Shown here: positions 1,140 through 8,046 of the stretch, piece by piece
How the letters are laid out: every line of letters begins with the position of its first letter
Numbering within the stretch: the first letter of the stretch is position 1
Assembly (NCBI RefSeq): GCF_001886815.1
Contig: NZ_CP018099.1
Span: 186,001 to 250,000 of the forward strand
Source: Caldithrix abyssi DSM 13497
GTDB taxonomy: Bacteria > Calditrichota > Calditrichia > Calditrichales > Calditrichaceae
Direction: 5' to 3'
Length of the DNA stretch: 64,000 bases
Position numbers and translations under genes: made by a program
The notes under the pieces: model-generated
Told to the model about the DNA's origin: nothing
The model's input: the letters and a program-made list of their open reading frames with translations, nothing else
Database searches by the model: none

Positions 1140-3398
1140 ATGGGAATTGAGTTTTACTACTATGCAGTTTTGATTCTGGCCATGTTTGCCGTTTTCGACA
1201 TCGTTGTTGGCGTTAGTAATGATGCCGTTAACTTTCTGAATTCTGCCATTGGCTCGAGGGTTGCTCCTTTTTATGTGATTATGATCATTGCAGGTCTTGG
1301 TCTTGTTTCGGGCGTAGTTTTTTCCAGCGGCATGATGGAGGTAGCCCGTAAGGGAATCTTCCATCCGCAATTTTTTACCATGCCCCAGTTAATTGTGCTT
1401 TTTCTGGCTGTAATGATTAGCGACGTTATTTTGCTGGACGTCTTTAACAGTTACGGTCTTCCTACTTCCACCACGGTTTCGGTTGTATTCGAGCTGCTGG
1501 GCGCGGCCGTTGCTATTTCTTTAATAAAAATATTTTCTGAAAGTCAGTCTATCGCCATGCTGGCTGAGTACATCAACACCAGCAAAGCGTTGATTATTAT
1601 ACTTGGTATTTTACTCAGCGTGGGCATTGCTTTTATTGTAGGAGCGATTGTTCAGTTCTTAACGCGTCTGCTTTTTACATTTGATTTTAGCAAACGGCTG
1701 AAAAAGTATGGCGCCCTGTGGGGGGGGCTGGCCCTGGCTTTTATCACCTATTTCATTTTGATTAAAGGCGCTAAAGGCGCTGCTTTCATTACGCCGGAAA
1801 TGTTAAAATGGATTCAAACGCACGCCTTTAGTATGCTGGCTATCATCTTTGCGGTTTCGGCCATATTTTTGCAGATATTGATCTTTTTAAATATTAATAT
1901 TCTCAAACCCATTGTATTGATTGGAACGTTTGCTCTGGCCATGGCCTTTGCCGCCAACGATCTGGTTAACTTCATCGGTGTGCCCATGGCTGGCTATCAC
2001 GCTTACGAGGCCGCTGTGCAAACCAGTGCGCCTTTAACCACAACCATGGAGGCGTTAAACAGCAAGGTGCCGGCAGAGCCGCATCTACTGCTGCTGGCTG
2101 GTATCATTATGGTTGTTACGCTGGCTTTTTCTAAAAAGGCGCGCACTGTAACTAAAACCGAAATTGATTTGAGTCGGCAGTCCGAAGGCGAAGAGCGCTT
2201 TGAATCCGTCTTTCTGGCCAGAAAAATTGTGAAGTTCTTTATTAGATTTTTCGATGCCGTCAAAAAAATTCTTCCGCAGTCGGCTCTAAACTGGTTTCGC
2301 AAAAGGCTGGATTCCGAACACTATCACCACCATCTGGCGGATGAACATACTCCTTCGTTCGATTTATTGCGCGCAGGGGTGAATTTGATGGTGGCCAGCG
2401 CGCTAATCTCTTACGCCACGTCGCACAAGCTGCCCCTTTCCACTACCTATATCACCTTTATGGTAGCCATGGGAACTTCCTTTGCCGATATGGCCTGGGG
2501 ACGCGAGAGTGCCGTTTACCGCGTGACCGGTGTGTTGACGGTTATCGCCGGCTGGTTCATGACCGCCTTTGCCGCTTTTGTTTCGGCGGCGCTGATCGCT
2601 ACTTTTATCTATTTTACCAAAGCTATCGGCGTGGGGATCATGCTTCTTGTGGTGATTGCATTTATAGCCCGCAATCACATTAAACATAAAAAACGTTTTA
2701 TCGAAAGCGAAGCCACCGAAGTTTACAACCTGAAAAAGATTACCGATGCGCATTCGTCCATTCACACTACTTTCGAGCAGATGGGCTTTTTGGTGCAAAA
2801 AATTCGTGAATCCTTAGATACCGCGCTGGAAGGTCTTTTTCAGCAAAATGAATACATTATCAAAAACGAAAGAGCAAAGAATAAAACATTCCAGAAATGG
2901 GCTAACATCATAACGGCCAACATCTTTAAATGTCTGCGTCTTTTGCAAAAGGAAGAGGCAGAGCTTTCTTACAAATATGCCAACACCATTCGCCATTTGC
3001 AGCGCATGGTTGACGGCCACCGCGATATTGTAAACCGCTCGTATTTACACGTAAGTAACCACCACAAAGGACTGCTGGGCGTGCAAATTGAAGAATTAAG
3101 CGAACTTAAAAATCAACTGTTAGAAATGCTAAAGGATGTTGAAAATACGCTGCACGCCAACGAAGAGCTTGACTACCATAAATTGGAAGAAAAGCACACC
3201 GCGCTGGAAACTCTGGCCGAAAGACTAAACGAGAAACAGATCGAACGCATTAAAGACGGCTCTTCCAAAACGAGGTTGAGCATCCTGTATTACGCCATTG
3301 TCAATGATGCGCTAATGCTTTCCAAGCAAAATTTGAAGATTCTTGAGATTTTTTCCGAAGTGTTGCACGGGGCCAAATCGGTTCTTGAAGAAAATTAA
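1140..3398 (+). CDS. PiT-family inorganic phosphate transporter with C-terminal PhoU-like domain
   Basis: 752 residues, much longer than a bare PiT carrier (about 420-540). The N-terminal part has many membrane helices and both halves of the PHO4 signature: the first copy contains NSYGLPTSTTVSVV near residue 105 and the second contains KLPLSTTYITFMVAMGTSFA near residue 430. PiT proteins import phosphate (or metal-phosphate) with H+ or Na+. After the last membrane segment (about residue 520) comes a roughly 220-residue soluble, helical, charged tail (HSSIHTTFEQMG onward) that looks like a PhoU-type helical bundle; in most bacteria such a regulator is a separate gene (pit accessory protein). 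Strong AAAAGGAATGATAA ribosome site precedes the ATG. Transporter call is firm; the PhoU-like label is inferred from length and helix pattern. Confidence 0.9.
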   Translation: MGIEFYYYAVLILAMFAVFDIVVGVSNDAVNFLNSAIGSRVAPFYVIMIIAGLGLVSGVVFSSGMMEVARKGIFHPQFFTMPQLIVLFLAVMISDVILLDVFNSYGLPTSTTVSVVFELLGAAVAISLIKIFSESQSIAMLAEYINTSKALIIILGILLSVGIAFIVGAIVQFLTRLLFTFDFSKRLKKYGALWGGLALAFITYFILIKGAKGAAFITPEMLKWIQTHAFSMLAIIFAVSAIFLQILIFLNINILKPIVLIGTFALAMAFAANDLVNFIGVPMAGYHAYEAAVQTSAPLTTTMEALNSKVPAEPHLLLLAGIIMVVTLAFSKKARTVTKTEIDLSRQSEGEERFESVFLARKIVKFFIRFFDAVKKILPQSALNWFRKRLDSEHYHHHLADEHTPSFDLLRAGVNLMVASALISYATSHKLPLSTTYITFMVAMGTSFADMAWGRESAVYRVTGVLTVIAGWFMTAFAAFVSAALIATFIYFTKAIGVGIMLLVVIAFIARNHIKHKKRFIESEATEVYNLKKITDAHSSIHTTFEQMGFLVQKIRESLDTALEGLFQQNEYIIKNERAKNKTFQKWANIITANIFKCLRLLQKEEAELSYKYANTIRHLQRMVDGHRDIVNRSYLHVSNHHKGLLGVQIEELSELKNQLLEMLKDVENTLHANEELDYHKLEEKHTALETLAERLNEKQIERIKDGSSKTRLSILYYAIVNDALMLSKQNLKILEIFSEVLHGAKSVLEEN

Positions 3399-4141: not shown

Positions 4142-5668
4142 TCAATCCTGTGTTTCTTTGTGTTTCCGTGCGGTGTTGGCTACTCTCATTGATTTAAAAT
4201 AGTCGTCCACCTGTGCGGGCGGACGCGTTAAGAGACTCACGATTACCGTTGCCAGAGCAGAGAGGAAAAAGGCCGGCACCAGTTCATAGATCATGCTCTT
4301 TAAAGCTGGAATATTGTACCAGATGATGGTGGTCAATGTGCCGGTGAGCAGCCCGGCCATAACGCCTGCCCTGGTGGTGCGTTTCCAGAACAGGGCTAAA
4401 ATAGAAGTGGGCCCGAGCGAGGCGCCAAGACCGGCCCAGGCAAACAGCACCAGCCAGAACACCAGATCTCTGGCCAGGTAGCCCAGCCCCAGAGCCGCAA
4501 TAACCAACAAAAAGATGGTTAATCTGCTGTAAATCACCAGTTGTTTTTTATTCAGACGCTGACCTTTTTTGATGAATTTTTCGTAAATATCGCGCACCAG
4601 GCTGGAAGCGGCCACCAGCAACTGCGAATCGGCGGTGGACATGATGGCGGCAAATACGGCGGCAATGGCAACGCCAAACAAAATGGGATGCAAATGCAGT
4701 TGCGCCAGAACGGGAAACAGATTCTCCGTGTCGTGGTTGGGCAGCATTTCAGGGCGGGTGAAATAGGTGCGCCCAACCAGACCAATAAAAATGGCGCCCC
4801 AGGCCATGACCACATTCCAGATGGTGCCGACCACGGCAGAATAGCGGAGCTGTTCGGCTTCTTTGATCGACATGTAGCGAACGATAATATGTGGATTTCC
4901 CGGCGAACCCAGTCCGATGCCTAAAAATCCGATGGCGGCTCCGACCGAAAGCGCAAAGGGATCAACAAACTTCGGATCAAGCGCCTGTAGCTGTGCCAGT
5001 ACCACGCTCAGCCCGCCTTTGTGCAAGATGGCAAGCGCCGGAAGAAGGACCAGCACGAGAATCATCAAAATTGCCTGAAGCATATCCGTTAAACTTACGG
5101 CCAAAAAGCCGCCTAAGATGGTGTAAAGCAGAACAATTCCGGCGGTGAGTAAAATCCCATAATCCGTTTCAATGCCAAAGCTGGCGGCAAAGGCCTTTCC
5201 GCCGCCGACAAACTGAGCGGAAACATAACTGACCATAAAAACAACCATAATCAGGGCTAACGTTAGCCGTAAAAGTCCGCTGCGGTCTTCGAAGCGATCT
5301 GCAAAAAAATCCGGTAATGTAATGCAGTCAAATTGTTCGCTAAAATGCCGTAATCTTCTACCGTAGAAAAGAAAGAGGAATAATTCTACTACAATGTATC
5401 CGATTACCGCCCACACCGCCGAAGGCCCTATTTTGTAAGCCATGCCCGTTACGCCTAAAAGCAACCAGGCGCTGCGTCCGGAAACCACGGCAGACAGGGC
5501 AACCACAAAGCGGTTCATCTTACGCCCGCCGACAAAAAATTCCCGAATACCAGCGGAGGAAAAACGGCTGGAAAAAACGCCGATCAAACTGACTAACACT
5601 AAATAGGCGATAAATGCCCCCAGACTGTAAGCATCACCGTGAATGTACGCGCTGCCGATTTTTTCCAT
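4142..5668 (-). CDS. Sodium:solute symporter (SSS family, PutP-like)
   Basis: 508 residues from ATG 5668, preceded by AAAAAGGAATTGAAC. About 13 hydrophobic segments. The family hallmark is seen in VSAQFVGGGKAFAASFGIE and in the substrate/sodium region SGRSAWLLLGVTG, close to proline symporter PutP and relatives. It would import a solute such as proline or a carboxylate with Na+ across the inner membrane; substrate cannot be fixed from sequence. The frame is open another 36 codons upstream, but this extension lacks a ribosome site and overlaps a better-supported 29-codon ORF in another frame, so the internal ATG is chosen. The stop codon of that small ORF lies 2 bases before this start, suggesting translational coupling. 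Confidence 0.92.
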   Translation of the reverse strand: MEKIGSAYIHGDAYSLGAFIAYLVLVSLIGVFSSRFSSAGIREFFVGGRKMNRFVVALSAVVSGRSAWLLLGVTGMAYKIGPSAVWAVIGYIVVELFLFLFYGRRLRHFSEQFDCITLPDFFADRFEDRSGLLRLTLALIMVVFMVSYVSAQFVGGGKAFAASFGIETDYGILLTAGIVLLYTILGGFLAVSLTDMLQAILMILVLVLLPALAILHKGGLSVVLAQLQALDPKFVDPFALSVGAAIGFLGIGLGSPGNPHIIVRYMSIKEAEQLRYSAVVGTIWNVVMAWGAIFIGLVGRTYFTRPEMLPNHDTENLFPVLAQLHLHPILFGVAIAAVFAAIMSTADSQLLVAASSLVRDIYEKFIKKGQRLNKKQLVIYSRLTIFLLVIAALGLGYLARDLVFWLVLFAWAGLGASLGPTSILALFWKRTTRAGVMAGLLTGTLTTIIWYNIPALKSMIYELVPAFFLSALATVIVSLLTRPPAQVDDYFKSMRVANTARKHKETQD

Positions 5669-5670
5669 GT

Positions 5671-5760
5671 TCAATTCCTTTTTGTTTTTTGTGCCAGCCA
5701 CAACGAAAAGAGAATAAGTCCCGTAGGAACGATGAACATCATAAAATAAAAAGAGAACAT
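5671..5760 (-). CDS. 29-residue hydrophobic peptide coupled to the SSS symporter
   Basis: ATG at 5760 with GAGGAG eight bases upstream; TGA at 5673-5671, two bases before the symporter ATG. The peptide starts MFSFYFMMFIVPTGLILFSL, forms one membrane helix, and ends with a positive tail (QKTKRN). The symporter ribosome site lies inside its last codons. Small membrane proteins encoded beside SSS and NSS carriers are known as accessory subunits in other bacteria (for example MetS beside MetP), so an accessory role is plausible but inferred. It could alternatively be only a coupling leader. Confidence 0.6.
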   Translation of the reverse strand: MFSFYFMMFIVPTGLILFSLWLAQKTKRN

Positions 5761-5913
5761 AGCCATTTCTCCTCAATTTATTAATGTTAAAAAATAGAAA
5801 AAAAACATAAGCGGAGCAAGAAAGACAGGTTCGGAAATGGTCAATTTTTTTTGTATTTGAATAAAATGATTTACTGCCTTAATTTATCCTCTGACAAATT
5901 GAAAGGAGTAAAG

Positions 5914-8046
5914 ATGAAGATTCGTTTGTTTGGTGTTTTGCTTTTGTTCACCTTTTCGCTCTTTGCCGAAGAAGGCATGTATCCCATTACGGAAATTCAT
6001 AAACTCAACCTGAAAAAACTGGGCATTGAATTGAGCGCAGACCAGATTTTTTCGGAAAACGAAGTGAGCCTTTCTGACGCCATTGTTCAAATAGGAGGAT
6101 GCACGGGCTCGTTTATTTCGCCGGAAGGTTTGATTTTGACCAACCACCATTGCGCATTTCGTGCCATTCAAAACATCAGCAGCACAGAAAACGACTATTT
6201 AACCAACGGTTTTGTCGCCCATACGCTGCAGGAAGAGCGCCCGGCTAAAGGCTACACGGTGCGCATTACAGAAAGAGTAGAAGATGTTTCGCAACGCGTT
6301 TTGAACGCCGTTAAACACATCGAAGACCCCATCGAGCGGGAAAAAGCAATCGAAAAAATCACCAAGCAAATTGTAAAAGAGCAGGAGCAAAAGCATCCAG
6401 GGAAAAGGGCCGCTGTTTCGGAGATGTTTCCGGGCAAAACCTATTACCTTTTCATTTACACCTATCTTAAAGACGTGCGTCTGGTTTATGCGCCGCCCCG
6501 CTCCATCGGAGAGTTTGGCGGAGAATTTGACAACTGGGAGTGGCCGCGTCACACCGGCGATTTTACGCTGATGCGCGCCTACGTGGCTCCGGACGGATCG
6601 CCGTCTGATTACAGCGAAGAAAACGTCCCTTACAGGCCTAAATCGTATTTAAAAGTAGCGGCTAAAGGCGTAGAAGAAGGGGATCGCGTGTTTATTCTGG
6701 GCTATCCCGGGCGCACTTACCGTCATCGAACCTCAGCCTTCCTGGCCTTTGAATATGAATTCCGTATGCCGTTTGTGGTTGATTGGTATCAGTGGCAAAT
6801 TGATTTGTTGACGACTTTGGGCAAAGACGACGCCGACCGTTCTTTAAAATTCAGTTCGTGGATTAAAGGTCTGGCTAACACGGAAAAAAATTACCGCGGA
6901 AAATTACAGGGCATCCGCCGGATCGGATTGCTCGAACAAAAAAAGAACGAAGAGGAAAAGATTCAGGTCTTCATTGCGGAAAATAATCTAAAAAAATATC
7001 AGCATGTTTTGACCGAAATTAAACAGATCTATCATACGTATCGACAAAGCGCCGTGCGAGAGATGTTGCTTTCTTATTTTGGCCGCAGCCCTGTTTTGCC
7101 GGCAGTTGCCCGAACTCTGGTTCTGGCTGCCGAAGAACGTCAAAAAGAAGACCTTGAGCGCGAAAGGGCCTTTATGGATCGTAATTTTAAACGTACGCAG
7201 ACGTACACTCTGTTACGTTTAAAAAATTTTGATAGCCAGGCCGATCAGTTAATTTTGCAAGAATTACTCAAAAAAGCGGCGGCGCTTCCTGAAGATCAGC
7301 GGATTTCCGCGCTTCGCTCAATTTTCAAGCTGGATGATGCCGCCGAAACGCGTCAGGTAATATCAGAGGCTTACCGGAAAACGCGTTTAAGCGATCCTGA
7401 GTTTGTGAAAACGTGCTTTGCCAAAACGCCGGATGAATTGAAAGCCCTGAACGATCCGTTAATCAACTGGATGCTGGCCCTCAAAGAAGATTACGAAACG
7501 TTGAAGAATATTCGCAAAGAGCGAAATGGAAAGTTACGTCGCCTGCGCGCCCTGTGGCTGGAGGCAAAACAGGCCTATCTAAAAACCGATTTCATCCCGG
7601 ATGCCAACGGCACCTATCGCATGACCTTTGGTTTTATTGAAGGCTACGCGCCGGCAGATGCGGTTTACAAAGCGCCTATCACCACCGGGCGCGGCATTTT
7701 AGAAAAACATACCGGCAAATCGCCTTTTGATACGCCGGAAAAATTGCTCGCCCTGCTCAAGGCAAAGCAATTCGGCCCTTTTGTCAGTAAAACGGTTGGC
7801 ACCCTGCCGGTTGGCATTTTGTACAGTTGCGACACCACCGGCGGCAATTCCGGCAGCCCGGTGCTAAACGCCCGCGGCCAGTTGGTCGGCTTAAATTTTG
7901 ACCGGGCTTTTGAAGCCACCATTAATGATTACGCATGGAACCACCAATACAGTCGCTCCATTGGCGTGGACATACGTTACATTTTGTTTCTATTAAAGTA
8001 TTTTTCAGGCGCGGAGCATCTTTTAGAAGAAATGGGCGTGCAGTGA
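5914..8046 (+). CDS. S46-family dipeptidyl-peptidase (DPP7/DPP11 type), exported
   Basis: 710 residues from ATG 5914, chosen because AAAGGAG lies just upstream and a signal peptide follows directly (MKIRLFGVLLLFTFSLFA then EEGMYP). Family S46 serine peptidases are periplasmic exopeptidases that remove dipeptides from peptide N-termini during protein scavenging. The catalytic histidine is in LTNHHCAF, the aspartate region in HTGDFTLMRAY, and the serine in TTGGNSGSPVLNARG; the central helical domain characteristic of S46 lies between. Shortly after the serine the sequence reads GLNFDRAFEA. The residue after FD is arginine, as in DPP11 (Asp/Glu-specific), where DPP7 has glycine; specificity is therefore inferred as acidic. 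Length is normal. Confidence 0.93.
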   Translation: MKIRLFGVLLLFTFSLFAEEGMYPITEIHKLNLKKLGIELSADQIFSENEVSLSDAIVQIGGCTGSFISPEGLILTNHHCAFRAIQNISSTENDYLTNGFVAHTLQEERPAKGYTVRITERVEDVSQRVLNAVKHIEDPIEREKAIEKITKQIVKEQEQKHPGKRAAVSEMFPGKTYYLFIYTYLKDVRLVYAPPRSIGEFGGEFDNWEWPRHTGDFTLMRAYVAPDGSPSDYSEENVPYRPKSYLKVAAKGVEEGDRVFILGYPGRTYRHRTSAFLAFEYEFRMPFVVDWYQWQIDLLTTLGKDDADRSLKFSSWIKGLANTEKNYRGKLQGIRRIGLLEQKKNEEEKIQVFIAENNLKKYQHVLTEIKQIYHTYRQSAVREMLLSYFGRSPVLPAVARTLVLAAEERQKEDLERERAFMDRNFKRTQTYTLLRLKNFDSQADQLILQELLKKAAALPEDQRISALRSIFKLDDAAETRQVISEAYRKTRLSDPEFVKTCFAKTPDELKALNDPLINWMLALKEDYETLKNIRKERNGKLRRLRALWLEAKQAYLKTDFIPDANGTYRMTFGFIEGYAPADAVYKAPITTGRGILEKHTGKSPFDTPEKLLALLKAKQFGPFVSKTVGTLPVGILYSCDTTGGNSGSPVLNARGQLVGLNFDRAFEATINDYAWNHQYSRSIGVDIRYILFLLKYFSGAEHLLEEMGVQ

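Follow-up and report, generated by a model that had tools for sequence, protein, structure and literature searches.

Directly ahead of a sodium/solute symporter (SSS) family gene in Caldithrix abyssi DSM 13497 lies a short open reading frame (ORF) for a 29-residue membrane peptide, and the same arrangement is conserved ahead of related symporters in five bacterial phyla. We think it likely, with a probability of roughly 0.7, that the pair is a two-gene unit in which a symporter of the PutP branch is joined by a single-helix accessory subunit, working on it much as MAP17 works on SGLT2; the claim is one of analogy. A carrier accessory subunit was what the original prediction had proposed from the letters of this locus: it is the best-supported reading, while the function itself is something that we infer.

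The window, meaning the whole stretch of DNA analysed, comprises 64,000 nucleotides (contig NZ_CP018099.1, positions 186,001 to 250,000 of the forward strand), and all positions below are window positions.

Materials and Methods

The 132 symporter loci were picked by similarity to the window symporter, and an ORF scored as absent is absent within the stretch read. Twenty of 28 symporter matches that initially had no locus were added, and 5 of 40 plasmid records were used. Rows were dropped as distant (L011, L012), as copies (L016 of L006, L049 of L004, L060 of L010, L127 of L007, L153 of L003) or as fragments (L019, L055, L056); L051, masked at its start, was dropped as well, and L047 is an additional peptide and symporter outside the 132. 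ORF presence was called by script at 62 loci and by eye at 7 (L048, L084, L085, L091, L100, L125, L141); the starts or frames of 15 peptides (L013 and L065 among the rows mis-set by the script) were set by hand, as was the gap at L013. The tree holds 106 of the 132 symporters; two fragments (L017, L143) are omitted, as are 24 of the 29 Fibrobacterota rows, a set in which the ORF is lacking throughout (29 of 29). Eight symporter membrane blocks served as controls in the profile comparisons.

Results

The microprotein gene and its coupling to the symporter. The features of the locus are as follows.

4142..5668, minus strand: SSS symporter gene, 508 aa, GR-type clade of the PutP branch (PF00474, TIGR02121, tree)
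4799..4801, minus strand: codon of Trp290, candidate contact (Trp retention compared with peptide presence in the clade)
5474..5479, minus strand: codons of Gly64-Arg65, aligned with Asp55-Met56 of E. coli PutP
5671..5760, minus strand: microprotein gene, 29 aa, MFSFYFMMFIVPTGLILFSLWLAQKTKRN (ORF reading, and an upstream ORF kept at 69 of 132 loci)
5676..5680, minus strand: AAGGA, symporter ribosome site, 7 nt before ATG 5668, within the last codons of the microprotein
5769..5774, minus strand: GAGGAG, microprotein ribosome site, 8 nt before ATG 5760

The microprotein has one helix, with a proline in its middle, and its ORF ends in a TGA at 5673-5671, leaving a gap of 2 nt before the symporter ATG at 5668. 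An in-frame ATG at 5766 gives a longer form of 31 residues (ORF 5766-5671, minus strand; MAMFSFYFMMFIVPTGLILFSLWLAQKTKRN), the 29-residue form being the one begun at the second ATG, 5760. The shorter form is the better call, because GAGGAG stands 8 nt from ATG 5760 and only 2 nt from ATG 5766, and because several homologues (MISFYFVLF, MIGFFIMMF, MLGFYLTMF) begin at the position equivalent to ATG 5760. For the symporter, the start at 5668 is favoured over TTG 5776, the first start of the open frame, since the N-termini of relatives align at MEKI. The original prediction had described a 29-codon membrane mini-ORF with a good ribosome site, a stop two bases ahead of the symporter, a symporter ribosome site within the end of the mini-ORF, and a symporter start corrected to 5668; each of these readings held up. 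A peptide search of the whole C. abyssi genome (one contig, 4,978,541 bases) returned a single match, the window locus.

Layouts of this kind were sought with a classifier that takes a whole ORF of 22-65 aa containing a hydrophobic 17-mer, with its stop between -40 and +15 of a gene start. Among genes of 250 aa or more, drawn from the window and 400 kb of the same genome, it was positive for 4 of 198, the microprotein-symporter pair included, and it was positive for none of the 11 other SSS genes of the C. abyssi genome. The layout by itself is unusual, but it is not proof; conservation decides. A 61-aa short hydrophobic ORF, MMFKDDLIFFLIWIIVFLLTWIIELK..., located just before 58756 (plus strand) and ending near the start of a 196-aa ORF, also matches the classifier.

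Conservation of the upstream ORF. A mini-ORF precedes the symporter at 69 of the 132 loci, is lacking at 60, and is undecidable at 3 cut by contig ends; because the loci were selected by symporter similarity, 69 of 132 is not a rate for genomes. The ORF-bearing loci belong to five phyla: that of the window, Fibrobacterota, Gemmatimonadota, Acidobacteriota and Bacillota. Among the first nine symporter relatives, eight have a matching mini-ORF directly upstream, and the ninth has 65 nt to the contig end. Conservation at orthologous loci, on which the original prediction had staked itself, is present: in the clade of the window symporter a related mini-ORF occurs at 43 of the 51 rows that could be decided, across the five phyla (44 of 53 if the two fragments excluded from the tree are added).

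That clade has an SH-aLRT support of 99 and contains 53 rows, the peptide being present in 43, absent from 8 and undecidable in 2; its Bacillota rows carry the peptide in 19 of 19 cases. Outside it, similar small ORFs are found in 17 of 20 rows of one Bacillales clade, in five of six SE-type rows, in two of three decidable rows of the GE clade, and at the isolated L152, which may be a chance ORF (it has no proline and sits on a long branch). No upstream peptide was found in the 15 rows of the clade with E. coli PutP, made up of plasmid copies (Escherichia, Acinetobacter, Staphylococcus, Tsukamurella) and ten Bacillales genes, or in seven other Asp-Met rows (Vibrio, Fibrobacterota, one Acidobacteriota). 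Presence and absence are clustered on the tree, with 10 changes against a shuffled mean of 29.3. Since the ORF is absent from 8 of 51 clade rows and from 60 of 132 loci within the stretch read, the peptide appears to be dispensable in some lineages; its absence from the E. coli PutP clade may be the reason it went unnoticed.

Loci were also sought with peptide profiles. Among 150 Gemmatimonadota genomes there were three matches (one a profile seed), all of which precede a GR-type symporter, and a symporter search of the same genomes found nine relatives at 59-69 % identity; three of them (L050, L053, L054) have no such ORF, and a fourth, L052, is cut. The peptide is missing or cannot be seen in these four, which make up a GR-type subclade and offer a natural peptide-free comparison. 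Among 22 genomes of the Melghiribacillus family, four of six matches (one a seed) precede such a symporter; the remaining two are L038, without an adjoining symporter, and L039, which is spurious. At L038, in genome G062, what is clearly the start of a Bacillota-type peptide, MGFNSEMILGLFIIPIGIILLGFLVW, continues into an 89-aa frame that no symporter follows, and the locus looks like a decaying orphan copy of the peptide gene. In 398 Bacillota genomes the profile found the seed genome, one false match inside a 666-aa frame, and nothing more; either few of the sampled genomes have the gene or so short a profile lacks sensitivity, and because of this poor yield loci were sought by symporter instead.

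Selection on the peptide and its fixed features. Pooled pN/pS was 0.20 in the peptide frame versus 1.56 and 1.83 in the other two frames, a result that comes from 25 close pairs among 27 Bacillota and Acidobacteriota loci, some pairs sharing loci and hence non-independent, and that pertains to relatives of the window peptide, not to that peptide itself, for which no sufficiently close relative was available. Among these close pairs, purifying selection acts in the peptide frame only. The 69 peptides are 28-57 residues long (median 34), and every one has more Lys and Arg residues after the helix than before it (mean 2.52 versus 0.04), so by the positive-inside rule the C-terminus would be expected inside. 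A mid-helix proline is found in 68 of 69, the exception being L152. At 61 of 69 loci a possible symporter start falls in the range from a 15-nt overlap to an 8-nt gap; at 35 the overlap is 4 nt or 1 nt. Ribosome sites with at least four matching bases were counted at 55 of the 69 loci, a count that we do not take as evidence since starts were chosen to favour such sites.

Scans of all 69 peptides against Pfam and NCBIfam gave no fitting family. The strongest match, to an LPXTG anchor, reached E 0.0022 with one peptide, and the next, to LAX, E 0.0058 with three. Three was also the largest number of peptides to match any one family, and a CydS-like family was touched by one (E 0.023); we take these matches as chance among hydrophobic helices. 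Small membrane genes of the DUF485 (YjcH-ActP), DUF4212 (VC_2705 type) and DUF997 (YhdT-PanF) families also adjoin SSS symporters, and their products are larger, with two helices. None of these identities could be adopted, as the peptides had no match at curated level; the nearest approach, at E 0.059, came from DUF485, in two matches for a set of 18 peptides, and the matches listed included none to DUF4212 or DUF997. The nearest look-alike, the MetS-type subunit of NSS carriers (PF16951), resembles the C. abyssi peptide in having about 30-35 aa, one helix and a Lys-rich end, and it is encoded next to its own carrier. Its motif, SAIVMMVVGxVIIWGGL, differs from the peptide here, however, and we reject a MetS identity: the 69 peptides had no Pfam match, profile comparison gave 0.2-14.8 %, and the partner here is an SSS rather than an NSS protein.

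Compared with one another, profiles of the Bacillota GR-type peptides and of the GR-type peptides of other phyla reached a probability of 96.6, against at most 77.5 and 35.4 for the controls with these two profiles, which supports the view that the two sets are related. The SE/GE-type peptides scored 90.8 against the other GR-type and 94.1 against the Asp-Met-type peptides (controls at most 35.4 and 1.0), which links them to both. Less clear-cut, the Asp-Met-type peptides scored 66-67 against the GR-type, above some controls and below the highest (77.5), and the Bacillota GR-type scored 67.8 against the SE/GE-type (highest control 77.5).

A clade of symporters apart from PutP. The window symporter belongs to the SSS family (PF00474, 269.1 bits against a cut-off of 22.8, covering profile positions 1-406 of 406). 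Its best NCBIfam match is PutP, TIGR02121, at 414.7 bits, below the cut-off of 515.5. In all 53 rows of the clade Gly-Arg replaces Asp55-Met56 of PutP, and the Gly-Arg rows are exactly the tree clade. PutP Trp244 is replaced by Ile in 53 of 53 rows and Tyr248 by Ser in 52 and Ala in one; Ala337 and Ser340 are unchanged in every one of the 53, and the position of Thr341 holds Thr or Ser. Met56 of PutP we take to lie at the Na2 site, where in other LeuT-fold carriers basic residues take the place of Na+. Asp55 and Tyr248 have been described as crucial for PutP function and proposed as participants in the inner gate (PMC7918813). With both replaced across the clade and the TIGR02121 score below its cut-off, we do not regard the window symporter as PutP proper, although it shares the same SSS branch; because of the changes at Asp55 and Tyr248, the substrate or the coupling of the GR clade probably differs from that of PutP.

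As to what is carried, our guess, from membership of the PutP branch and from the neighbours at two loci, is an amino acid or a similar small carboxylate. Divergent from the microprotein-symporter pair is a peptidase S46 gene (5914-8046, plus strand; 697 bits), and at L006 the genes ahead of the pair encode a POT-family transporter and an M24 peptidase; the neighbours at L003, L008 and L010 give no comparable substrate hint. Together the S46 neighbour and the L006 genes possibly indicate a context of peptide use, a weak hint at the substrate.

Trp290 as a candidate contact. Within the GR clade, Trp290 is found in 41 of 43 rows with the peptide (Tyr in the other two) and in 2 of 8 rows without it. 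It is the only one of 135 conserved columns lost in all of L018+L142, L050+L053+L054 and L126, where 0.018 such columns would be expected for that choice of lineages; the position is Gly, Met, Ala and Ala in L050, L052, L053 and L054. Once any lineage choice is allowed the signal is weak: for any three of five lineages, 0.29 columns are expected and two are seen, Trp290 and Val85, the latter changing to Leu or Ile only. In an alignment to vSGLT K294A (2xq2), Trp290 falls about five residues past position 294. Presumably it lies in core helix 7, and Val85 near the beginning of core helix 2. Both helices would be in the bundle domain, the domain that MAP17 is described as accompanying in SGLT2 (PMC10803289). 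These observations are suggestive only of a contact between Trp290 and the peptide helix.

Discussion

The linkage of peptide and symporter, the coding selection, the fixed form of the peptide, the coupling of the two genes, the kinship among GR-type peptides, the behaviour of Trp290 and the kinship with SGLT2 together lead us to favour an accessory subunit. Ribosomes would translate the 29-residue peptide, terminate, and reinitiate on the symporter, and by this stop and restart the two products would be made in step. The peptide would insert in the membrane with its C-terminus in the cytoplasm, its proline-bearing helix would pack on the outside of the symporter, against the bundle, and there it might stabilise the symporter's fold or scaffold in the fashion of MAP17 and SGLT2. 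Against such a role, classical PutP works without a peptide, and some lineages lack the ORF.

In SGLT2, the single-helix partner MAP17 is described as required for robust function; it adjoins one helix (TM13) and accompanies the bundle domain, serving as a fixed scaffold that stabilises (PMC10803289). SGLT2 (7vsi) is a distant sequence relative of the window symporter (E 6e-6), and the pair described here would have in common with it a single-helix partner of an SSS transporter; the analogy is one of working only. MAP17 is larger, eukaryotic and separately encoded.

Given that 35 of the 69 loci have a 4-nt or 1-nt overlap, that stop and start are overlapping or adjacent, and that the symporter ribosome site is within the ORF, one could suppose that the act of translation and not its product matters, the ORF being a leader that sets symporter expression through coupling. 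A mere leader needs none of what we find, however: the amino-acid sequence is under selection, and the helix, the proline and the charge pattern are kept across distant phyla, and we consider a leader quite improbable. The same fixed proline and tail would be superfluous if the hydrophobic nascent peptide served, in cis, to draw the mRNA and its ribosome to the membrane, an idea whose appeal is that a hydrophobic product stands directly ahead of a polytopic membrane protein; as none of the 11 other SSS genes in the genome has such an ORF, we give it very little credence. An accidental ORF in the space ahead of the symporter deserves mention because the classifier also flagged 3 of the remaining 197 genes to which it was applied in the window and 400 kb of C. 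abyssi sequence, but conservation, symporter linkage and coding selection are all contrary, and conservation together with coding selection in relatives effectively rules it out.

A regulator seems to us unlikely, if more deserving of attention. Here the peptide would bind the symporter only at times, inhibiting it or steering its turnover, like MgtS, MgtR and SgrT with other carriers. That the symporter can work alone is shown by the lineages that lack a peptide, and such roles are reported as established for proteins of 28-42 aa (PMC10710835). The direct gene coupling at most loci suggests, instead, a fixed production in step. MgtS, MgtR and SgrT, for their part, are in most cases produced separately from their targets or in response to stress.

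Small partners have been documented for other transporters (PMC10710835) and for SGLT2; what would be new is a small partner for the PutP branch. In the open-access literature searched we found no description of a small subunit for PutP-branch symporters, and a term search of the main text of a 2021 review of prokaryotic SSS symporters did not turn up the words subunit, accessory, small protein or YjcH. PutP is a leading bacterial SSS model, and if the peptide is indeed a subunit, experiments on PutP relatives by themselves may be missing a part of the machine; bacteria would then also offer a compact model of a single helix tuning an SSS transporter, as MAP17 does in kidney. Genes of 28-57 residues that are absent from Pfam and NCBIfam are in this way assigned a clear partner, and for the GR-clade transporters the name PutP is unwarranted without a test.

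Tentatively, and with the odds in our view somewhat against it, we speculate further that symporters across the PutP branch (GR, SE/GE and one Bacillales Asp-Met clade) include a single-helix subunit bearing a proline, a general and perhaps ancestral component that textbook PutP has lost, and that the GR clade is an unstudied class of transporters with Arg in the place of Met56 and a different substrate or ion coupling.

Convergent with the symporter unit, at 1140-3398 on the plus strand, lies a gene for a 752-aa protein that, judged by eye, has the look of a PiT phosphate carrier whose long, soluble C-terminal part is similar to PhoU/DUF47.
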